Of a stretch of 44,138 bases of DNA, positions 1-22,132 are shown one piece after another. How positions within the stretch are numbered: position 1 is the first letter of the stretch; the number at the start of each line of letters is the position of its first letter. A model generated the notes under the pieces. That model was not told the origin of the DNA. It ran no database searches and saw only the letters and a program-made list of their open reading frames with translations. Both the position numbers and the translations under genes were made by a program. Location of the stretch: assembly GCA_937919825.1 (NCBI GenBank), contig CALFPA010000015.1:1-44138 (forward strand), in the 5' to 3' direction. The stretch comes from an uncultured Spartobacteria bacterium (GTDB lineage: Bacteria; Verrucomicrobiota; Verrucomicrobiia; Chthoniobacterales; Terrimicrobiaceae).

Positions 1-17
1 AGTAAAGGAATACTAAA
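1..17 (+). promoter_or_regulatory. Flagellin leader with ribosome binding site, copy 1
   Basis: The 17 bases before the first flagellin start contain AAAGGA eight bases upstream of ATG and are identical to the 17 bases before the second flagellin (1266-1282). Identity of both leaders, running into the first codons, points to recent duplication or to selection on the translation start. The GGA in the Shine-Dalgarno could also be a CsrA contact, as in flagellin leaders elsewhere. The rest of the leader lies outside the window. Confidence 0.7.
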
Positions 18-836
18 ATGATCAGTATCAATACAAATACGGCCTCCAGTCTGGCAGCGTATAATCTCGGAAGCACCAATGTGAACCTGCAAAGGAGCCT
101 GCAAAGACTCTCGAGCGGAACGCGAATCAACTCCTCAATTGACGATGCCGGTGGGTTGGCGGTGTCGATGAAGCTCTCGGCGTCAATCCGTCGCACCGAG
201 GCTACCCAGGCGAATGTGAACAACGCGCTGTCGTTTTTGCAGACGCAAGATGGAGTGATGAAAAATGCGCAACAAATTCTGTTGCGTTTGTCTGAATTGG
301 GCCAATTGGCAGCGGATGTTACAAAATCCACAACGGATACCTCGTTGTATCAAACAGAATTCAGTTCACTGACATCGGCATTGAGCGCGATGACATCGGA
401 GGAGTTCAATGGAGTAGGAATGTTTGATACGACTACTGCAACAAGTCTGACAGTCGTAACATCCGAAAACGGAGGACAAACCAACGGGATTACGATCTCC
501 GATCTGAACGCGATTGTTACCAGTCTGAATAGCTTGGATGTTAGCGACACAACCGCAGCAATCACAACGACTATTTCGACATTGGAAACAGCGATTCAGG
601 ATCTTGCAGGGCTCCGCGCCACGAATGGATCGGAACAACAGAGGCTAACCTTCGCAGCCGACATGCTGGCGATCAACAAGGTGAATCTGGAATCGGCCAA
701 TGGGCGGATCGCGGATGTGGATATCGCAAGCGAAAGCGCGAACCTGGCCCGGTTGAATATCTTGCAACAGGCTGGGACGGCAATGCTGGCGCAGGCGAAC
801 ATGTCCACGCAATCGGTTCTACGACTGTTAGCATAA
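18..836 (+). CDS. Flagellin (copy 1)
   Basis: A 272-residue flagellin, the filament subunit exported through the flagellar type III apparatus. Residues 1-105 carry the conserved N-terminal D0/D1 helices (RLSSGTRINSSIDDAGGLAV, then FLQTQDGV) and about residues 195-272 the C-terminal helices (ADVDIASESANLARLNILQQ, MLAQANMSTQ, ending LRLLA). The central surface domain is only about 90 residues and Ser/Thr-rich, so this is a short flagellin with many possible O-glycosylation sites. There is no signal peptide and no cysteine. The start is fixed by the AAAGGA site. It heads a run of four flagellin genes; paralogues follow at 1283, 2122, 3058 and 21266. Confidence 0.95.
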   Translation: MISINTNTASSLAAYNLGSTNVNLQRSLQRLSSGTRINSSIDDAGGLAVSMKLSASIRRTEATQANVNNALSFLQTQDGVMKNAQQILLRLSELGQLAADVTKSTTDTSLYQTEFSSLTSALSAMTSEEFNGVGMFDTTTATSLTVVTSENGGQTNGITISDLNAIVTSLNSLDVSDTTAAITTTISTLETAIQDLAGLRATNGSEQQRLTFAADMLAINKVNLESANGRIADVDIASESANLARLNILQQAGTAMLAQANMSTQSVLRLLA

Positions 837-903: not shown

Positions 904-934
904 GGAGATCAAAAACCCAAGGAAGAAAGATAAG

Positions 935-948
935 CGGCAAGGAAGCCG
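935..948 (+). promoter_or_regulatory. CGGC-AAGGAA-GCCG hairpin, candidate CsrA site
   Basis: A 4-bp stem with the hexaloop AAGGAA. It belongs to a set of three hairpins with A(A/C)GGA(A/C) loops in flagellin leaders (see 1234-1249 and 21232-21247). GGA in an apical loop is the established CsrA recognition element. This copy stands before the flagellin remnant at 1082-1165 and may be the leader of a lost flagellin gene. An open reading frame of 36 codons (1008-1118) follows it, starting ATG just after AAAAGG; whether it is translated cannot be decided here. Confidence 0.4.
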
Positions 949-1081
949 GAGAAACAAAAAAACCAGATGAACTAACCGCAAGCGATTAACCGAAAGGACA
1001 AAAGGTTATGAAGCCGGAAGGCGACATATTGGAGAAGAAATCGGAAACCGAAAGCATTCTGCTAAGGTCTGCTGCTGCTGG

Positions 1082-1165
1082 ATTGATCAAGACAGCGGGG
1101 CTGAAACTGCGATTCTAGCCCAGGCAAACCTTTATGTAAATGCAACGCTGACTTTATTAACATGA
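1082..1165 (+). pseudogene. Relic of a flagellin 3' end
   Basis: In one frame this stretch reads IDQDSGAETAILAQANL and then ten more residues ending TLLT before TGA. It matches the flagellin C-terminus (LQQAGTAMLAQANM, then SVLRLLA, then stop). The number of residues from the TA pair to the stop is the same as in flagellin 1, and DNA similarity is clear over the AQAN block. No flagellin N-terminus precedes it. It is best read as the surviving tail of a deleted flagellin gene between copies 1 and 2. The alternative reading is the overlapping 36-codon frame 1008-1118 in another phase. Confidence 0.5.
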
Positions 1166-1181
1166 TATTAAATTTTAACAA

Positions 1182-1201
1182 TTTTGAGATATATCTCAAA
1201 A
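1182..1201 (+). promoter_or_regulatory. Perfect 20-bp palindrome upstream of flagellin 2
   Basis: TTTTGAGATATATCTCAAAA is its own exact reverse complement. It lies about 80 bases before the flagellin 2 start, in A+T-rich DNA, and is followed directly by a second small inverted repeat (GGGTT-N6-AACCC, 1202-1217). A perfect, A+T-rich palindrome of this length fits a dimeric regulator's operator. As RNA it would form a 9-10 bp stem with almost no loop, which makes the DNA-site reading more likely. No sigma-28 box is obvious in this interval. Confidence 0.55.
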
Positions 1202-1233
1202 GGGTTGGTCGTAACCCAGTAATCCGACCCGGA

Positions 1234-1249
1234 GCGGCACGGAAGCCGC
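1234..1249 (+). promoter_or_regulatory. GCGGC-ACGGAA-GCCGC hairpin, candidate CsrA site
   Basis: A perfect 5-bp stem closes the hexaloop ACGGAA, 33 bases before the flagellin 2 ATG. The flagellin 5 leader has the same hairpin with one pair changed on both sides (GCGGA-ACGGAC-TCCGC), which is a compensatory change. In Bacillus the flagellin (hag) leader carries such a hairpin with GGA in the loop, bound by CsrA, plus a second GGA in the Shine-Dalgarno; the same arrangement is seen here (AAAGGA at 1269-1274). Confidence 0.5.
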
Positions 1250-1282
1250 AAATAAATAAATACAAAGTAAAGGAATACTAAA

Positions 1283-2092
1283 ATGATTAGCATCAATACT
1301 AATGTGGCCTCCATGTCGGCGGCATACAACTCAACCAATACGAATCGTGAGCTTCAGAAAAGCCTCCAACGCCTATCCAGTGGATTGCGAATCAATTCAT
1401 CATCGGATGATGCCGGCGGTTTGGCGGTTTCCATGCGATTATCCGCCGCAGTGAGGAGAACAGAGGCAACTGGCAGAAATGTCAATAATGCAATCTCGTT
1501 CCTTGCAACTCAAGATGGCGTTTTGGATGCCGCTGGAAAAGTGCTCACCCGCTTGGCTGAACTAGCTCAACTCAATGCAGATAATACAAAATCAACAAAC
1601 GATAAGGCACTCTATGAAACCGAGTTTGATGAATTAGTTTCAAGCATTGATAGCTCTGGGGATGAGACTTTCAATGATCAGGTGTTATTTTCCGCAGGGG
1701 GCAACACTCTGGAGGTAATTTACTCGGAGGATGGTTCTAGGACCACAGGTATAACACAAGCAGATTTGGCGGCAATCCACACGGATCTTGCGGGAATTGA
1801 TTTCCTCGCTGATGCCGTGACGGATACGATCGATGCCATTGATACAGCAATTAATGATCTCGCTCAGATGCGGGCACAAAATGGAGCCGAGCAAACAATG
1901 CTTACGCATGCCTCGGATCTTCTAAAGATAAATCAAATCAATCTCGAGGCGGCAAATAGCCGCATCATGGATTTAGATATCGCCAACGAGAGTTCCAACC
2001 TCGCTAGGTTAAATATTATGCAGCAGGCAGGCATGGCAATGCTTGCCCAAGCCAATCAAAGCCAAGATGCAGTTCTGCGACTGCTCTATTAA
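1283..2092 (+). CDS. Flagellin (copy 2)
   Basis: A 269-residue flagellin with the same layout as copy 1. It has N-terminal D0/D1 (MISINTNVASMSAAYN, RLSSGLRINSSSDDAGGLAV, FLATQDGV), a short acidic central domain of about 90 residues, and a C-terminal D1/D0 (MDLDIANESSNLARLNIMQQ, MLAQANQSQDAVLRLLY). The leader is identical to that of copy 1 over the last 17 bases. It shares the operon direction with copies 3 and 4; only 29 bases separate it from copy 3, so co-transcription is likely. Divergence among copies in the central domain suggests a mixed-subunit filament. Confidence 0.95.
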   Translation: MISINTNVASMSAAYNSTNTNRELQKSLQRLSSGLRINSSSDDAGGLAVSMRLSAAVRRTEATGRNVNNAISFLATQDGVLDAAGKVLTRLAELAQLNADNTKSTNDKALYETEFDELVSSIDSSGDETFNDQVLFSAGGNTLEVIYSEDGSRTTGITQADLAAIHTDLAGIDFLADAVTDTIDAIDTAINDLAQMRAQNGAEQTMLTHASDLLKINQINLEAANSRIMDLDIANESSNLARLNIMQQAGMAMLAQANQSQDAVLRLLY

Positions 2093-2121: not shown

Positions 2122-2922
2122 ATGATTAATGTAAATACAAATATTGCAGCATTAAAAGTGATGACGGCTTTTAATGACTCCCAAGGCAACCTCTCGAAAG
2201 CCTTGCAAAGGCTTTCCAGCGGATTGCGCGTTAATTCTTCTCAAGATGATCCCAGTGGATTGGGGGTTTCGATGAGGCTGAATGCACAAATCGCACGGAA
2301 AAGTGTGGTTTATGATGAAGTCAATAATGCGGTATCTTTTTTAGATACTCAAGACGGCGTGATGGATGCCGCCAATTCTGTGCTGCAACGCATGGCTGAA
2401 CTCACGCAACTTGGTGTCGGTAGTTTGAACACAAGCGCTCAAGCAATTTACCAAGTTGAATACGATGAACTTGAGGATGAGTTGGAGGGCCTCTTGAGTG
2501 AGGAGTTCAATGGTAAAAGTTTGTTTGCCGATGGTGGCGGATCGCTCACGGTCTTCACCTCGGACAACACGTCGCAAACGGCATCCATGACTCAAGCGAA
2601 CATGGAGGATCTAGTCTATGATGTCGTTAATGGAGGAAGTGTAACAAATACAGCTACATACTCTGCGATAACAACGGCAATCAATAACCTTGCTGAACTG
2701 CGTGCAACCAATGGCGCCGAGCAGAATCGCTTTGAGCGGGCGGCAAGCGTTTTGGATGCAGGAATTATCAATCTGACTGCGGCAAATAGCCGAATCATGG
2801 ATGCAGATGTTGCTCAGGAGTCCGTGAATATGACAAAGTATGATATTCTCCAGCAATCAAGCCTCGCCATGTTGGTTCAAGCCAACCAGAACAAAGAAAA
2901 TATCCTGCGGTTGCTGGAATAG
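2122..2922 (+). CDS. Flagellin (copy 3)
   Basis: A 266-residue flagellin. The N-terminal block is more diverged (RLSSGLRVNSSQDDPSGLGV, where copies 1 and 2 have DDAGGLAV), and the C-terminal block reads MDADVAQESVNMTKYDILQQ, then MLVQANQNKENILRLLE. This substitution pattern sets it apart from copies 1, 2 and 5 and may mark a minor or specialised subunit. No good Shine-Dalgarno precedes the ATG (ATAGAAAGCTAATATT), so its translation may be coupled to copy 2 or weak. It is followed by a long inverted repeat and then by the lectin-domain flagellin. Confidence 0.93.
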   Translation: MINVNTNIAALKVMTAFNDSQGNLSKALQRLSSGLRVNSSQDDPSGLGVSMRLNAQIARKSVVYDEVNNAVSFLDTQDGVMDAANSVLQRMAELTQLGVGSLNTSAQAIYQVEYDELEDELEGLLSEEFNGKSLFADGGGSLTVFTSDNTSQTASMTQANMEDLVYDVVNGGSVTNTATYSAITTAINNLAELRATNGAEQNRFERAASVLDAGIINLTAANSRIMDADVAQESVNMTKYDILQQSSLAMLVQANQNKENILRLLE

Positions 2923-12509: not shown

Positions 12510-13630
12510 TGACCTCAAATCCGATTTATGTTGGCAGTCCCAATATTGGCAATCGAGCGGCATTTATAAATCGAGTCACTGAAATTCTTGATAATAGAAG
12601 GTTTTCTAACAATGGTCCTCTGGTTCAACATTTTGAAAAACGAATCGCCGAATTTCTCGGTGTCAATCACTGCGTGGCGATGTGCAATGCGACGGTGGCT
12701 TTGGAAATCGCGAGCCGGGCGTTGAATTTGCACGGCGAGGTTATCGTGCCAAGCTACACCTTTGTGGCAACGGCACACGCCTTGCAATGGCAGGAAATCA
12801 CGCCGGTTTTTTGCGATATGGATCCGGCGACGCACAACATCGATCCGGCCAAGATCGAGAGACTCATTACGCCTAAAACGACAGGAATTCTCGGCGTTCA
12901 CGTATGGGGGAGGGGCTGCGACACGGAAGCAATCGACGAGATTGCGTCGCGTCGAAACCTGAAGGTCATGTATGACGCCTCGCACGGCTTCGCGTGTTCG
13001 AAGGGCGGAAAAATGCTGGGAACTTTTGGCGAATGCGAGGTCTTCAGCTTCCATGCCACGAAGTTCCTGAATTGCTTTGAGGGCGGCGCGGTGGTGACGA
13101 ACAATGACGAATTGGCCGAAAAAATGCGGCTCATGCGGAATTTTGGGTTCCAAGGATTCGACAATGTCATTTATCTCGGAGTGAACGGCAAGATGAGCGA
13201 GGTGCACGCAGCCATGGGACTTACGAATTTGGAGGCGGTTGAAGAAATCATCACGGTGAACCGCCGCAACTATGAGTCGTATCGTGCCGGATTGGCCGAT
13301 GTGCCGGGAATTTCCGTGATCGACTATGATCCCGCCGAGCGGAATAATTATCAATATGTTGTGATCGAGGTGAATTCCGAATCCTGCCCTCGCAATCGCG
13401 ATGAAATCGTGGAGGCTCTCCATGCGGAAAACATTATTGCCAGAAAATACTTCTGGCCCGGTTGCCACAAAATGGAGCCTTACAGGTCGCTACAGCCAAA
13501 TGCAGGATTGCTTCTGAAAGAAACCGAGAAAATCTCGTCAAGGGTTATCGTTTTACCAACTGGTCAAACGGTTGAAGTTGAAACAGTCAACTTAATATGT
13601 AATCTCATTCGCCGGTTTTTAAAAAATTGA
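12506..13630 (+). CDS. DegT/DnrJ/EryC1-family sugar aminotransferase
   Basis: 374 residues. PLP-dependent: Lys186 (SFHATKFLNCFEGGA) is the Schiff-base lysine and Asp157 (MYDASHGF) binds the pyridine nitrogen. These enzymes aminate 4-keto (or 3-keto) nucleotide-6-deoxyhexoses to give donors for surface glycans. Partner enzymes that make the keto sugar are not in the window. The middle of the gene (about 12650-13470) is G+C-rich while both ends are A+T-rich, so the gene looks mosaic. It overlaps both neighbours by four bases. Confidence 0.92.
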   Translation: MMTSNPIYVGSPNIGNRAAFINRVTEILDNRRFSNNGPLVQHFEKRIAEFLGVNHCVAMCNATVALEIASRALNLHGEVIVPSYTFVATAHALQWQEITPVFCDMDPATHNIDPAKIERLITPKTTGILGVHVWGRGCDTEAIDEIASRRNLKVMYDASHGFACSKGGKMLGTFGECEVFSFHATKFLNCFEGGAVVTNNDELAEKMRLMRNFGFQGFDNVIYLGVNGKMSEVHAAMGLTNLEAVEEIITVNRRNYESYRAGLADVPGISVIDYDPAERNNYQYVVIEVNSESCPRNRDEIVEALHAENIIARKYFWPGCHKMEPYRSLQPNAGLLLKETEKISSRVIVLPTGQTVEVETVNLICNLIRRFLKN

Positions 13631-16600
13631 CTATAAATCTAATGGAGAAAGACAAGGATAGAAAATCCGCCTCTAAACTGCCGATACCAGTTAGAATTTC
13701 TGAGCAGGTTTGGGATGATGAAGCGCCTCCTTTTTTGAGTATATGCTGCATAACATATAACCATTCAAAATTTATTAATAAATCGATTGACAGTTTTCTC
13801 ATGCAGGAAACTTCATTTCCTGTTGAAATTATCATAAGAGATGATGCATCCACCGATGGAACCCAAAATATAATTAAGGATTACGCTAAAAAGTATCCGC
13901 ATTTAATTAAAACAATTCTCCATTCCGAAAATCAGTTCAAAAAATCAAAAAGGGCATTCCCCGAAACTTATTCGGTTGCCCGGGGCTATTATATAGCATT
14001 GTGTGAGGGGGATGACTGCTGGACAGATATATCAAAGCTACAGAAACAAGTTTATTTATTGCAACAAAACCCAACAGCCAGTTTTTGCTTCCACAACACG
14101 CTAATAGTAAATGAAAAAATGGAGGTATCCGGGCAACTTCGTCCTCAAAATCCATCCTTAATACATTTCATTGAGGAGTTGCTTGGTAATAATTTCATTC
14201 ATACCTCTTCGATTGTTTTTAGAAAATCCATGCTGCCTCAATTCCCCGAGTGGTATTCCAAGGCACCAATGGGGGATTGGCCGCTTTGCATTCTATTGGC
14301 GGAGAGGGGTCAGTTTCTCTATATCAACGAAGTCATGTCGCATTATAGGTTGCACGGGCAAAGTAGTTGGAGCACCCAGGGTCAAGCAACTCGATGTGCA
14401 AAGACGGCTCATTTGTTTGATTTGCTGAAGGACCACTTTGCAAAAAAGCCAGAGCTTTTGGCCAAGGTGCATAATGGATTTATCATGCATTGCATGAATA
14501 CCGCCAAGGAATTCAAGATTCTAAATGATGTGGAGAGCGCTAATTTCTTTCACGAAAAAGTAATTGAGGCGCTTGCTGGCGTTAAGATTTCTGAAAGAGT
14601 CCAAGAGAGATATGCGAATAAAACTCCCCAGGATTCAGAAAATGTCTCCCTCATAAATTCCGATCCTAAGGTTAAAAACAATACAAATCAGGATGATCCA
14701 CTAGTTAGTATTTGTATTCCGACTTACAATGGTGAACTCTTTATAAAAAACACGCTCCTGTCTGCCATATCACAAACTTTTGCGAATTTAGAAATCATTG
14801 TTTCAGATGATTCCTCAACGGATAGGACTTGTGAGATTGCCGAAGATATCTTACGGGATTGCAAGTTTCCTTTCCGTGTCCTCAAACATGCCCGCTTGGG
14901 ATTGGTAGAAAATTGGAATTTCTGCATCGAAGAAGCAAAAGGGAAGTATATTAAATTTCTCTTTCAAGATGACCACTTGGAGCCCTTTTGTGTTCAGAAA
15001 TTAGTGGAAGTTTCCGAGAGGGAGTCCAATATCGGCATGGTTTTTTCGTGCCGCGGGGTGGAGTCTGTTGGTGGAACCATGATACCAGCGGACTCGATTG
15101 ACCTTCATAAAGGTTGGTCAAGGCTTCAAAGAATTCAAAAAGGAAGCGATTTGCTTCGTGACCCCAAACTTCTAGCCAATCCAATCAATAAAGTTGGGGA
15201 ACCAACAACCGTCCTTCTCAATAAAGAATTATTGAAGTCCTTGGGCGGGTTCGATTCTAAGTTACGACAGCTTGTGGATGTGGATATGTGGCTTAGGATT
15301 ATGATGGCATCCAACATTGGATTTGTGGATGAACAATTATCCACCTTCCGGTTGCACCAAGGTCAAGCCACTCGCGATAATGTAAAAACCGGCATCATTC
15401 AAAGGGACTGGGAAACTTTTTACAGGAAGCTTGCGGAATCCAGTGATTTCAAAAATCTCCCGACATTCCATAAGCGGTTGGCCGCGCAAATGCTGGAGAA
15501 AATTTCTGCAAAATCACCTTCTCAGCTTTCCGATCTTGGGGTGATTGGGGCGTGGCGAGCTAACCCCACTGATCCAGAGAATTTTGAAAAAGTAAAAAGT
15601 TTGCGGTTGCGATTAGCAAAGTCTATATACCAAGTGGATAAGGGGCAATTGGATAGGTTGCTCCAAGACAAATCTGCAGATTCCTACTCGGCGCTTTTAT
15701 TAAGCGGAATCCAATCCGAGTTTATTTCTGCTGAGGATAAGGATTTTTTGCAGAGTATAAAATCCACCGAGGATGCAAGCAAAAAAAACGCTTTCTTTGC
15801 TACAGCCTTATTTAAACCCGCGCATCTCATTCCAGCATTTGATGATTTATCAAAACTGCCCAAAGAATTTCGCAAAACCTTTTTTGAATATCTTTTCAAG
15901 TCGCTTGAGGTTTTCCTGCATCCTGGCGAAGCGGAGTTTTACTGCGCGCATTTGCTGGATTGGCTGGGCGAGGCGGTGAGGAGGATCGAGAAGGAGCCAG
16001 GTGCGGAGTTGACCAGGGCATTGGCAACGGTGGCGATGCAGTTGGCCAATCAAATTCCGTCTTATTGCTCGCCGGAAAGCAACCGGGAACTTACGGGGCT
16101 TCGTGCGAGGGTGATCGAGCATTCCCTGGAAAAACTCGGTGGCGACTTGGCGATACCGGCTAAGGCGAGGCCCGCCCAGCGAGGAAATAGGAAAATCCGG
16201 GTGGGGATTTTGAATGCCCATTTTGGTTTGCAGACGGAGACTTTCGTAACGATGCCGGCGATGCATTTGGACAGGTCGCGGTTTGAGCTTCATTTGTTCC
16301 ATTGCGTGAAAAATCCCGGTGCGATCGAGGATCGTTGCCGGGCGATGGCGGATGGGATGCATCTTTTGCCCGAGGCGATTGGCGAGCGGGTGAAGATGAT
16401 TCGCAATGCGAATTTAGATGTGATCATCATCGGGACGAATATTTCGGCGGTGACGAACCAGATTGCGTTGTTGGCAGCGTTCCGGTTGGCACCGCTTCAG
16501 ATCGTCTCGCATTGCTCACCGATGACGGTGGGATTCAAGAGCTGCGATGCGTTTCTCTCGGGGTATCTGGCCTATAGCCCGGGACTGAGCGAGAAGGAAT

Positions 16601-19600
16601 TCCATGAGAAGTTGATCCTTCTGGATGGGCCACCGGTTTGTTTGGATTACTCCTGCGAGCCGCGTGCGGCGGCGGACGTGGTGCCGGATCGTGCACAACT
16701 TGGAATACCTGCCGAGGCGCCGATTTTCTTCAATGCGGCTAGTTGCTTCAAGATGCCACTGGAGTTGTTGCAGGCCTGGGTGCGGCTTTTGAAGGAGGTT
16801 CCTGAGGCGTATTTGTGCCTGTTGCCGTTTAATCCAAATTGGACGAACAGACTGCCGGAGGTTTCTTTCCGTCGGGTGCTGGAAGGGGTGCTCCAGGAGG
16901 CGGGGGTGGAGTCCAATCGGGTAGTGATCGGGCCTTCGCTGCCAAATCGCGCGGCCGTGATGGAGTTCGAACGGATCGCCGATGTTTATCTGGATACCTT
17001 TCCATTTGCCGGAAGCATTTCGACTGTAGATCCGCTGCAGTTGGGGATTCCCGTGGTGGCCTGCGATGGAAAAACGACGCGATCGAGGTGTTCCGGCGCC
17101 CAACTCAGGGAGATCGGGATGGAGGAACTTGTGGCGAGGAGTAAGGAGGAATATTTACAAAAAGCGGTCCGCCTCGCTCGGGATGTGGAGTATCGCAATG
17201 ATGTTTCTTTGCGGATTCAGGAGGCGATGTCCCAGAAGCCGAGGTTCCTAGACCCAGCCTCGTATGGTCGCTCGCTTGGGAATGCTCTGGAAATTCTGGT
17301 CGACGAGGGGATCGGGGCGATTTCGGATCCAGTTGCCTTTCATGAGAAGCTGAAGCAGAAAATTACTATGCAATCCCCTGATCCACAACCAGCCTTCCAG
17401 CCAACCTCAGCCACGCTGGAGGCGGCAGTTTCGGCATTCCAAGTGGGGCAGTTGGCGGAGGCAGAGGATATCTGCAGGGCATTGCTGGGCGCGGATGAGA
17501 AGTGCGCGGGGGCTTGGAATCTCATGGCGCGGATGGCGGCGCTGAATGGGGATCTGGAGACGGCGGGGGATTTCGGTGCGGTGGCTTGTGAGTTGGAGCC
17601 GGAGAATGCGGGGTTTGTTCGGTTTTTGGCGGAGGTGTTTTTGAGGCGGAAGGAAATCGAGCAGGCGGAGCAGTTGGCTCGCCGGGCGATGGAGTTGGAG
17701 CCGGAGTCTTCGGAGGGCTTGGTGATGCAGGGTCGCGTGCTGGCGGAGAAAGGGGAGCAGGGGAATGCGCTAGGGGCTTTTGAGAAGGCGCTGCGCCTGA
17801 AGAAGGATGATGCGGAGGCGATCACGCATTACGCAATGGCTCTGCAGAAATTTGAACGGGGCAAGGATGCGATTTCGCAGATTCGCAAGGCGTGTGCGCT
17901 GGAACCGGATTCCGTGGAGCATCAGACCAATTTTGCCTCTCTGCTGGAGCAGAACAAACGCTATGTCGATGCGCTGGCAGCCTACGGCAAGGCGGCGCGG
18001 ATGAATCCCGATGTGGGCTACATTTGGTTTCGACAGGGCAAACTTCTGAACGGCCTGAAGCGTTACGCCGAGTCGATTCCGATGTTGGAAAAAGCGGTTT
18101 CGCTCCCGGGCCGGTTGGGCGAATTCCATTACGAGCTGGGCCTGGCGCTTCATATGTCCAAACGATTTCCCGAGGCCCTCGACCAATATGGTCAGGCGCT
18201 CGCGGCGGGCTACAACACCGCCGCCCTGCAGTGCAACCGGGGTGTGATTTTCAAGGAGCTCCGGCGCGGAGGCGATTCGATCATGGCCTTCCACAACGCC
18301 GTGAAAATGGATCCCTCAAATCTCTCGTATCTCAACAATCTCGGCGCGGCGGCTCTGGAGATTGGCTTGAACAGCGAGGCGTTGGACTGCTTCGAGGAGG
18401 CGGTGCGCCAGAACCCGAAGATCGCCACGGCACAAAACAACATCGGCAACCTGCTCAAAGACCGCGCGCGGGGCATGGATGCCCTCCCGCACTACCGCAA
18501 GTCGATGGAGTTGGATCCATCAAGTTCGGACACGCAAAGCAACTATCTCCTCTGCCACATGTATCTCTCGGAAATGGATCCGAAGACAGTCTTTGAGGAG
18601 CACCGGAAATGGGGCCTCGAAAAGGCGAAAAAAACGCCGCCGGCATTCAAATTCAAGCCGAGGTCGCCAGGCTCGAAGCTCCGCGTGGGTTTTCTATCCG
18701 GCGACCTCTGTCACCACCCCGTGGCGCATTTCATCGAACCGCTTTTCCGCGAATATAATAAGGAGAGTTTTGAATTTGTGGCGTATGGCGACCAGCGGAA
18801 ATCGGACGAGTTTTCGGAGCGTTTCGCCAAGCAAGTCGATCTCTGGCGCGAGACCTGCAGCCTCACCGATGAGGCGCTGGCGAAAAAAATCCATGAGGAC
18901 CGCGTGGATATTCTTTTCGAGTTGTCCGGCCACACGGCCTACAACCGAATGGGTGTCCTCGCATTGAAGCCCGCGCCGCTTCAGGCGAGCTATCTGGGCT
19001 ACCCTGGAACGACCGGCCTGCCGACGATGGATTTCCGCATCACCGATGAGTTGGTGGACCCCGCAGGCATGACGGAAAAATTCCACACCGAGCGGCTCAT
19101 ACGGTTGTCGCGTTGCGCCTGGTGCTATGAACCCGATGCCGTGGCACCCGAGGTGGGGACATTGCCATTCCAGCGAAACGGCCACATTACTTTCGGTTGT
19201 TTCAACAATATGGCGAAACTCAACCCCGCGCTTTTTGACATGTGGGCGGAGATTTTGATCAAGGTTCCCGACTCGCACCTGCGCTTGAAGGCCAGAACAC
19301 TCACCGACGATCGCGTGAAAAACGAGCTGAAGGACTATTTCATCGCGAAAGGCATCGCCGCAGAGCGCCTCGATTTTTTTGGTCACACTAGAAAAATCCA
19401 CGAGCATTTGAACCATTACCACGAGGTGGATATCGCTCTAGACAGCTTCCCCTACCACGGCACCACCACCACCTGCGAGGCGATGTGGATGGGCTGTCCC
19501 GTTGTGACTTGCGCTGGCGCGGCCCATGTCTCGCGCGTGGGAGTGAGCCTGCTCTCGGCCGTGGGCCTGGAGGAATTCATTGGCCAAAATCGGGAAGATT

Positions 19601-19758
19601 ACATCGGCAAGGCCGCCGCGCTGGCGGGCGACATCGATCGGCTTGTGGAGCTTCGTGCAGGCATGCGCGACCGGCTGAAGTCCTCGCCGCTCATGAACGC
19701 GCCGGATTTCGCCAGAGAATTTGAGGTGGCGCTTCTGCAAATGGCCGAGGCGCGCTGA
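13627..19758 (+). CDS. Giant multidomain glycosyltransferase (GT2-GT2-GT41-TPR-GT41)
   Basis: 2,043 residues. About 37-240: GT2 domain (LSICCITYNH, DDASTDGT, EGDDCWTD). About 359-560: a second GT2 (VSICIPTYNGE, DDSSTDRT, FQDDHLEP). About 856-1225: a GT41-like domain without the HPxxH motif (KIRVGILNAHFGLQ, DTFPFAGSISTVDPLQLGIP). About 1262-1660: tetratricopeptide repeats. About 1683-2043: a complete GT41 domain (LSGDLCHHPVAHFIEP, FNNMAKLNP, DSFPYHGTTTTCEAMWMGCP). It could start a glycan on Ser/Thr and extend it on one polypeptide. The start is TTG 13627, overlapping the aminotransferase stop, or ATG 13642. The first 2.2 kb is A+T-rich and the rest G+C-rich, which suggests the gene was assembled by fusion. 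Confidence 0.9.
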   Translation: MTINLMEKDKDRKSASKLPIPVRISEQVWDDEAPPFLSICCITYNHSKFINKSIDSFLMQETSFPVEIIIRDDASTDGTQNIIKDYAKKYPHLIKTILHSENQFKKSKRAFPETYSVARGYYIALCEGDDCWTDISKLQKQVYLLQQNPTASFCFHNTLIVNEKMEVSGQLRPQNPSLIHFIEELLGNNFIHTSSIVFRKSMLPQFPEWYSKAPMGDWPLCILLAERGQFLYINEVMSHYRLHGQSSWSTQGQATRCAKTAHLFDLLKDHFAKKPELLAKVHNGFIMHCMNTAKEFKILNDVESANFFHEKVIEALAGVKISERVQERYANKTPQDSENVSLINSDPKVKNNTNQDDPLVSICIPTYNGELFIKNTLLSAISQTFANLEIIVSDDSSTDRTCEIAEDILRDCKFPFRVLKHARLGLVENWNFCIEEAKGKYIKFLFQDDHLEPFCVQKLVEVSERESNIGMVFSCRGVESVGGTMIPADSIDLHKGWSRLQRIQKGSDLLRDPKLLANPINKVGEPTTVLLNKELLKSLGGFDSKLRQLVDVDMWLRIMMASNIGFVDEQLSTFRLHQGQATRDNVKTGIIQRDWETFYRKLAESSDFKNLPTFHKRLAAQMLEKISAKSPSQLSDLGVIGAWRANPTDPENFEKVKSLRLRLAKSIYQVDKGQLDRLLQDKSADSYSALLLSGIQSEFISAEDKDFLQSIKSTEDASKKNAFFATALFKPAHLIPAFDDLSKLPKEFRKTFFEYLFKSLEVFLHPGEAEFYCAHLLDWLGEAVRRIEKEPGAELTRALATVAMQLANQIPSYCSPESNRELTGLRARVIEHSLEKLGGDLAIPAKARPAQRGNRKIRVGILNAHFGLQTETFVTMPAMHLDRSRFELHLFHCVKNPGAIEDRCRAMADGMHLLPEAIGERVKMIRNANLDVIIIGTNISAVTNQIALLAAFRLAPLQIVSHCSPMTVGFKSCDAFLSGYLAYSPGLSEKEFHEKLILLDGPPVCLDYSCEPRAAADVVPDRAQLGIPAEAPIFFNAASCFKMPLELLQAWVRLLKEVPEAYLCLLPFNPNWTNRLPEVSFRRVLEGVLQEAGVESNRVVIGPSLPNRAAVMEFERIADVYLDTFPFAGSISTVDPLQLGIPVVACDGKTTRSRCSGAQLREIGMEELVARSKEEYLQKAVRLARDVEYRNDVSLRIQEAMSQKPRFLDPASYGRSLGNALEILVDEGIGAISDPVAFHEKLKQKITMQSPDPQPAFQPTSATLEAAVSAFQVGQLAEAEDICRALLGADEKCAGAWNLMARMAALNGDLETAGDFGAVACELEPENAGFVRFLAEVFLRRKEIEQAEQLARRAMELEPESSEGLVMQGRVLAEKGEQGNALGAFEKALRLKKDDAEAITHYAMALQKFERGKDAISQIRKACALEPDSVEHQTNFASLLEQNKRYVDALAAYGKAARMNPDVGYIWFRQGKLLNGLKRYAESIPMLEKAVSLPGRLGEFHYELGLALHMSKRFPEALDQYGQALAAGYNTAALQCNRGVIFKELRRGGDSIMAFHNAVKMDPSNLSYLNNLGAAALEIGLNSEALDCFEEAVRQNPKIATAQNNIGNLLKDRARGMDALPHYRKSMELDPSSSDTQSNYLLCHMYLSEMDPKTVFEEHRKWGLEKAKKTPPAFKFKPRSPGSKLRVGFLSGDLCHHPVAHFIEPLFREYNKESFEFVAYGDQRKSDEFSERFAKQVDLWRETCSLTDEALAKKIHEDRVDILFELSGHTAYNRMGVLALKPAPLQASYLGYPGTTGLPTMDFRITDELVDPAGMTEKFHTERLIRLSRCAWCYEPDAVAPEVGTLPFQRNGHITFGCFNNMAKLNPALFDMWAEILIKVPDSHLRLKARTLTDDRVKNELKDYFIAKGIAAERLDFFGHTRKIHEHLNHYHEVDIALDSFPYHGTTTTCEAMWMGCPVVTCAGAAHVSRVGVSLLSAVGLEEFIGQNREDYIGKAAALAGDIDRLVELRAGMRDRLKSSPLMNAPDFAREFEVALLQMAEAR

Positions 19759-21168: not shown

Positions 21169-21231
21169 AACTGGGTAAGGAGAAGAATCTCCAAACACTG
21201 AGGTCGAACAGTGAACCAAAACGGCCCGACA

Positions 21232-21247
21232 GCGGAACGGACTCCGC
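21232..21247 (+). promoter_or_regulatory. GCGGA-ACGGAC-TCCGC hairpin, candidate CsrA site
   Basis: A 5-bp stem with hexaloop ACGGAC, 18 bases before the flagellin 5 ATG. It equals the flagellin 2 hairpin except for a double, pair-preserving change and the last loop base. A second ACGGA lies in the Shine-Dalgarno region (21260-21264). The same leader holds two more small stems upstream (GGAGA-AGAA-TCTCC and CACTG-N8-CAGTG). Confidence 0.5.
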
Positions 21248-21265
21248 AATAGAAAGACAACGGAT

Positions 21266-22132
21266 ATGTCAGTAGTAATCAACACCAATACAAGCGCCTC
21301 CTTGGCGTCTTACAACCTCAGCAGCACCAACGTTAACCTCCAGAGAAGCCTTAATCGTCTCTCCAGCGGTTCCCGTATCAATTCCTCCTTCGACGACGCC
21401 GGCGGCACCGCCGTGTCGATGAAGATGAGCGCCTCGATCCGCCGGACCGAAGCCACCCTCGCCAATGTGAACAACTCGGTGGCGTTCCTGCAGACCCAAG
21501 ACGGCGTTCTCAAGAATGCCGACAAGGTTCTCAACCGCATGTCGGAGCTGGCGATGCTGGCCACCGATGTGACCAAGTCCACGAATGATTTGGCACTCTA
21601 CAGCACGGAACTAACCCAACTCAAAGGTCAGCTACAGCTCATGCTCAGCGAGAAGTTCAATGGAATTACATTGTTCGACACTGGCACCACCGCTGGCTTT
21701 GATCAAGGAACAGATGCCGCCACCTTGACGGTAGTGACATCACATGATGGAGATCAATACTTCGATATTACTCGGGCGGACTTGAACTTTATCAGTAGCA
21801 GCAATGGCGTAGGACAAACTGCCGCTACTGGTATGGATATAACTACAACTGCACTAGCAACAACTGCAGTAAATACAATCCAAACTGCCATCCAAAACTT
21901 GGCCACACTCCGCGCCAATAACGGAGCCGAGCAGAGCCGGTTGAGCTTCGCGGCGGACATGCTGTCCATCAACAAGATCAACCTCGAGGCAGCCAACAGC
22001 CGCATCGTCGATGTGGATGTGGCCGCAGAAAGCTCGCAACTCGCCCGCTTCAACATCCTGCAGCAAGCAGGCACGGCGATGCTGGCCCAGGCCAACATGT
22101 CGACCCAGTCGATCCTTCGACTCATCAGCTAA
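21266..22132 (+). CDS. Flagellin (copy 5)
   Basis: 288 residues, the longest plain flagellin here. The N-terminus has RLSSGSRINSSFDDAGGTAV and FLQTQDGVLKNADK; the C-terminus has IVDVDVAAESSQLARFNILQ and MLAQANMSTQSILRLIS. The central region of about 100 residues is Thr/Ser/Asp-rich. It is closest to copy 1. The G+C-rich codons at both ends contrast with the A+T-richer centre. It has its own sigma-28 promoter and a strong terminator, so it is a single-gene unit and probably a main filament subunit. Confidence 0.95.
   Translation: MSVVINTNTSASLASYNLSSTNVNLQRSLNRLSSGSRINSSFDDAGGTAVSMKMSASIRRTEATLANVNNSVAFLQTQDGVLKNADKVLNRMSELAMLATDVTKSTNDLALYSTELTQLKGQLQLMLSEKFNGITLFDTGTTAGFDQGTDAATLTVVTSHDGDQYFDITRADLNFISSSNGVGQTAATGMDITTTALATTAVNTIQTAIQNLATLRANNGAEQSRLSFAADMLSINKINLEAANSRIVDVDVAAESSQLARFNILQQAGTAMLAQANMSTQSILRLIS

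Follow-up and report, generated by a model that had tools for sequence, protein, structure and literature searches.

A flagellin leader RNA of Verrucomicrobiota with two candidate CsrA sites and a covarying pseudoknot

The window, a 44,138-nt stretch of DNA from an uncultured Spartobacteria bacterium (contig CALFPA010000015.1), contained five of the seven PF00669 matches of the 2.7-Mb source draft genome; the others were a flagellin of sigma-54 type on contig C59 and flgL on C108. An open reading frame as long as 2043 aa (13627–19758) lay between both flagellin loci. A first-pass annotation had reported three hairpins with A[AC]GGA[AC] loops (at 935, 1234 and 21232). Their coordinates were exact, and the C-G to A-T change that it described was correct and concerned the loop-closing pair of helix P2 (Table 1). 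Scanning both strands for such loops on Watson-Crick stems of at least 4 bp detected five hairpins in all, the two further ones (AGTA-AAGGAA-TACT, at 1–14 and 1266–1279) being located on the Shine-Dalgarno (SD) sequence itself, against a mean of 0.39 and a maximum of 3 in 100 dinucleotide shuffles.

The hairpins at 1234–1249 and 21232–21247 were one helix (P2) of a ~100-nt leader RNA preceding flagellin genes. From the 5′ end, this leader comprised a hairpin P0, a hairpin P1, P2 with its GGA loop, and an SD GGA that was often enclosed in a short hairpin P3; a pseudoknot joined the loop of P1 to the segment immediately preceding P2. P0, P1, P2 and the SD hairpin P3 were all present in the minimum-energy fold of the leader at 21174.

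Table 1. Flagellin genes, leader parts and related elements of the window (both leaders also belong to alignment A1, on which model R1 was trained)
Feature	Position	Strand	Evidence or remark
SD hairpin before flagellin 1, same as in leader 2	1..14	+	remaining leader lost at contig start
Flagellin 1	18..836	+	PF00669
Hairpin CGGC-AAGGAA-GCCG	935..948	+	separate intergenic element between flagellin 1 and leader of flagellin 2
Flagellin C-terminus remnant (GAETAILAQANLYVNATLTLL)	1088..1159	+	score 47; maximum of 30 over 2000 randomly drawn window pieces
Leader RNA of flagellin 2 (P0, P1, pseudoknot, P2, SD, start codon)	1181..1285	+	covariance model R1, 54.3 bits, E 6.8e-10
P0 of leader 2, GAGA-TATA-TCTC, weak	1186..1197	+	sequence, model alignment; P0 helix covaries in alignment A1
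P1 of leader 2, GGGTT-GGTCGT-AACCC	1202..1217	+	structure parse
Pseudoknot of leader 2, GGTCG 1207–1211 with CGACC 1225–1229	1207..1229	+	structure parse; swap test, 125 leaders
P2 of leader 2, GCGGC-ACGGAA-GCCGC, candidate high-affinity CsrA site	1234..1249	+	scan, covariation
P3 of leader 2, SD GGA in AGTA-AAGGAA-TACT, candidate second CsrA site	1266..1279	+	
Flagellin 2	1283..2092	+	PF00669
Flagellin 3	2122..2922	+	starts 29 nt past flagellin 2; without leader of the described type
Sigma-28-like promoter, TAAAGGCC-N-ACCGATAA	21141..21168	+	pattern match
Leader RNA of flagellin 5	21174..21273	+	model R1, 55.5 bits, E 3.7e-10
P0 of leader 5, GGAGA-AGAA-TCTCC	21179..21192	+	model alignment, minimum-energy fold
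P1 of leader 5, CACTG-AGGTCGAA-CAGTG	21196..21213	+	model alignment, minimum-energy fold
Pseudoknot of leader 5, GGTCG 21202–21206 with CGGCC 21222–21226	21202..21226	+	joint helix search; swap test
P2 of leader 5, GCGGA-ACGGAC-TCCGC	21232..21247	+	scan, covariation
P3 of leader 5, GACA-ACGGATA-TGTC, contains SD GGA and start codon	21256..21270	+	minimum-energy fold
Flagellin 5	21266..22132	+	PF00669

All three hairpins had been taken for parts of flagellin leaders, which was right for those at 1234 and 21232 and wrong for that at 935. On the latter the leader model gave 6.9 bits for the P2 part alone, without P1, pseudoknot or SD, as compared with 54 and 55 bits for the real leaders. Copies ~71% identical to the stretch around it (~907–998) were found between the flagellin genes of G007, with CGGC-AAGGAA-GCCG unchanged in one of them and almost unchanged in the second. 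A third flagellin leader at 935 was rejected, since the model finds P2 only and the copies of the other species lie between flagellin genes. Hairpin 935 is part of a real, conserved element of its own beside a decayed flagellin remnant. The element, with its hairpin and a short open frame starting MKP, was seen between tandem flagellins in the window (905–1000) and in L159 (1263–1358 and 2478–2559).

Leaders were collected from genus relatives and from named Verrucomicrobiota, mostly via flagellin similarity, and were mutually related. Among 145 unique leaders, 131 had a GGA-loop hairpin of at least 4 bp between −75 and −14, where 8 were expected and shuffles gave 13 at most. As the shuffles of the window and of the leader set were both far below the observed counts, a chance origin of the hairpins was rejected. 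Across 51 aligned non-redundant leaders, the P2 loop had an invariant GGA and most of the SD AAGGA was nearly invariant, whereas the stems were variable. In this alignment P0, P1, the pseudoknot and P2 together gave 176 double-changed cells, compared with 65 for shuffles, none of which was as high. Over 136 distinct leaders, in which the GGA was near-invariant and the SD AAGGA changed little, P2 was paired at 99.0%; each of its five pairs showed compensatory changes, and double-changed cells numbered 133 against 21 expected from column shuffles. The hairpin was thus kept in related leaders with abundant compensatory change, and the conserved structure was larger than the first-pass annotation had seen, extending to P0, P1 and the pseudoknot.

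The P1 and pseudoknot helices were parsed by a joint search for both. Because the pseudoknot runs in two registers, between which column counts are split, a register-free swap test was employed. In 125 leaders, mean complementarity was 5.44 with a leader's own linker and 3.78 with linkers swapped between leaders (maximum 4.00 in 200 swaps), and a score of 5 was reached by 72% of own but only 17% of swapped linkers. The paired strands included GGTCG/CGGCC, ATCCGG/CCGGAT, ATTCGG/CCGAAT, AACCGA/TCGGTT and GGCTTG/CAAGCC.

A GGA was located at most 22 nt from the start codon in 136 of 136 parsed leaders, 17–34 nt (median 21) from the GGA of P2. This agrees with the CsrA layout suggested for the locus beforehand, a GGA in a hairpin loop plus a second in the SD region, both being predicted sites. 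Flanks able to pair over 3 bp or more (e.g. ATC/GAT, AAC/GTT, GTA/TAC and GACA/TGTC) enclosed the SD GGA in 93 of 107 distinct contexts. The P3 stems were short, mostly 3 bp, and since swapped flanks also gave at least 3 bp in 60% (shuffled flanks, 17%), P3 is a likely hairpin but a weaker one. RsmE is known to bind ANGGAN hexaloops, and the SELEX consensus of CsrA is RUACARGGAUGU (PMC7652899). P2 resembles these high-affinity hairpins, its loop being a strict ANGGAN hexaloop in 75 of the 136 leaders and mostly one or two bases longer in the remainder; ACANGGANGU was present in 22.

Whole genomes of the genus and 145 genomes of the phylum were searched with a covariance model built on helices P0, P1 and P2, and both searches gave strong hits. 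Of the 27 hits in the phylum, all immediately preceded a flagellin gene or a flagellin-like one, save two at contig ends. The P0 and P1-pseudoknot domain was found in the genus and in one further family (f7) of the phylum sample. A weaker class of leader, at most one per genome, preceded a divergent flagellin-like gene (MSFIIKTN...AHEAVLRLF) and retained P2 and the SD while lacking the usual P1. This gene, of 231–242 aa and missed by PF00669, was seen with the same P2 and SD in several genomes of the genus (L148, L152–L155, L157 and L158). An orphan leader (L156, G005:C49:17655–17720) had P1, the pseudoknot strands and P2 with no flagellin downstream. A weak hit at C24:20654 of the source genome, in repetitive sequence, looked like a false positive. 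Neither the window nor 20 related loci matched any Rfam 15 family above its gathering score; the covarying pseudoknot RNA is new relative to Rfam.

Strict sigma-28-like promoters were found just upstream of 31 of 135 leaders, against 2 at a control position. Their location just upstream of P0 puts the RNA's 5′ end close to that helix.

Both of the regulators proposed for the locus were present in the source genome. The csrA and fliW genes each occurred once, side by side in a flgL-fliW-csrA arrangement with fliW directly upstream of csrA. CsrA, a protein of 103 aa encoded on C108, matched PF02599 (77 bits) and FliW matched PF02623 (96.7 bits). Residues 1–54 of CsrA aligned to the solved chains of RsmE (2jpp) and E. 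coli CsrA, with L4, R6 and R44 present, of which we take L4 and R6 to be important for RNA binding. In entry 5dmb, FliW matched the FliW chain and CsrA matched the CsrA chain. Among the 145 phylum genomes, flagellin was found in 17, and fliW and csrA in 16 each. The csrA and fliW genomes were the same 16, all within the 17 with flagellin, and each had a fliW copy beside csrA. The restriction of csrA to flagellated genomes of this sample points to flagellin control as its main role in the phylum. Six csrA-positive genomes beyond the reach of the model had GGA-loop hairpins before their flagellins on unrelated stems (e.g. AAGCAACAC-AAGGAC-GTGTTGCTT and AAAATGAC-AAGGAT-GTCATTTT). In G132 the SD itself was placed in a GGA-loop hairpin.

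The sole flagellated genome of the phylum sample without csrA belonged to a family in which flagellin was found in 7 of 16 genomes and csrA and fliW in none. A GGA-loop hairpin of at least 4 bp was absent from 19 leaders of those 7 genomes, and the SD of their flagellins was often AGAAAGGTA, without GGA. Missing candidate sites where csrA is missing is the outcome that control by CsrA predicts, and this related flagellated family provides a natural control. As the csrA-negative genomes form one family and their flagellins are divergent, the contrast amounts to about one independent event in evolution.

These results suggest, with a probability of about 0.88, that the leader is a switch for flagellin translation, repressed by CsrA and relieved by FliW, like those of Bacillus hag and Campylobacter flaA. 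By analogy with these two systems, a CsrA dimer would bind with high affinity to the GGA of the P2 loop and extend to the SD GGA ~21 nt downstream, blocking the ribosome. While flagellin is being exported, FliW would be free to bind CsrA and the block would be lifted; once unexported flagellin accumulates, FliW would be bound by it and CsrA would shut off translation. Given a leader with two candidate CsrA sites, and CsrA and FliW in the same genomes, flagellin is probably made only when it can be exported. The function of P0, P1 and the pseudoknot is most likely to shape and protect the 5′ end and to leave P2 free for CsrA, although this is a guess.

P2 and the SD site have the layout of hag and flaA; the new addition is P0 and the P1-pseudoknot domain. 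In Campylobacter jejuni flaA, two ANGGA stem-loops have been described, the second over the ribosome-binding site, and CsrA binding and FliW antagonism have been measured (PMC4894983). The Verrucomicrobiota leader resembles flaA in its two ANGGA-loop sites, one at the ribosome-binding site, in compensatory changes across species, in the antagonist FliW and in a sigma-28 promoter. It differs in that the flaA leader is 45 nt long and described with two stem-loops only, P0, P1 and the pseudoknot belonging to the Verrucomicrobiota leader. Moreover, fliW is apart from csrA in Campylobacter, and repression was measured there, whereas the Verrucomicrobiota leader is known from sequence comparison. 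In Bacillus, hag is under CsrA-FliW-Hag control that works like flaA (PMC6529632). Shared with B. subtilis hag are two CsrA sites, one of them over the SD, fliW beside csrA, and flagellin homeostasis; in contrast, the excerpts of PMC6529632 and PMC7652899 do not mention a pseudoknot domain for hag, and the Verrucomicrobiota genome has many flagellin paralogues. E. coli glgC (PMC7652899) likewise has a high-affinity hairpin-loop site that tethers CsrA and lets it bridge to the SD, but it is another gene, with four sites and no FliW. In the open-access literature we found no paper describing the P0/P1-pseudoknot leader and no report of CsrA-FliW flagellin control in Verrucomicrobiota, to which such control would now be extended.

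P1 and the pseudoknot covary strongly and independently, as would be expected if this domain were a separate sensor (of a metabolite, an ion, FliW or another protein) that integrates its signal with that of CsrA, the CsrA sites being the output. Precedents include a reportedly weak binding of FliW to the hag leader (PMC6529632) and moaA, with CsrA sites inside a riboswitch-like leader (PMC7652899). However, the bases of loops and joining segments that lie outside the helices were little conserved in alignment A2, unlike those of ligand-binding aptamers, and the CsrA part alone seems to be enough in other families, so that we regard such a sensor as unlikely. That the P1-pseudoknot domain acts independently as a sensor or as a protein-binding element (e.g. 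for FliW), gating the access of CsrA to P2, with two signals acting on one leader, seems rather doubtful as well.

The many strong leaders per genome might instead serve chiefly as a sponge that sets the level of free CsrA for other targets. Titration of CsrA by flaA mRNA in Campylobacter (PMC4894983), a number of PF00669 matches that reaches 15 in a single genome of this genus, and extra GGA hairpins such as 935 and that of the orphan leader L156 would fit such a role. On the other hand, csrA was restricted to flagellated genomes of the phylum sample, so that its other targets may be few, and GGA enrichment around 935 was not clearly significant (P 0.03–0.23), for which reason a GGA-rich sponge there was dropped. 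We consider this explanation improbable.

Flagellin is expressed at a very high level, the probable 5′ end falls at P0, which directly follows sigma-28-like promoters, and the P1-pseudoknot domain is retained in two families, but a leader acting mainly as an enhancer of stability or translation, which protects an abundant mRNA and keeps the SD open with an incidental GGA in P2, is very improbable, as it accounts neither for that invariant GGA amid freely varying stems, nor for GGA-loop hairpins persisting in families without the pseudoknot, nor for their loss where csrA is missing.

A second type of flagellin, with a sigma-54-like promoter (TTGGCAC-N5-TTGCT), was seen in the source genome (G000:C59:14764, which is L115 from 1265 onward) and in L007, L021, L028 and L030. 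It had no GGA near the start codon and had its own GGA-loop hairpins on changing stems (e.g. TGACCC-AGGATA-GGGTCA and GATCC-ATGGATT-GGATC). In six genomes, a gene with a flagellin N-domain followed directly after csrA, beside fliW and flgL (G114:C1:469579, G075:C3:39712, G103:C1:2269718, G157:C11:1106966, G100:C14:5452 and G025:C25:387937).
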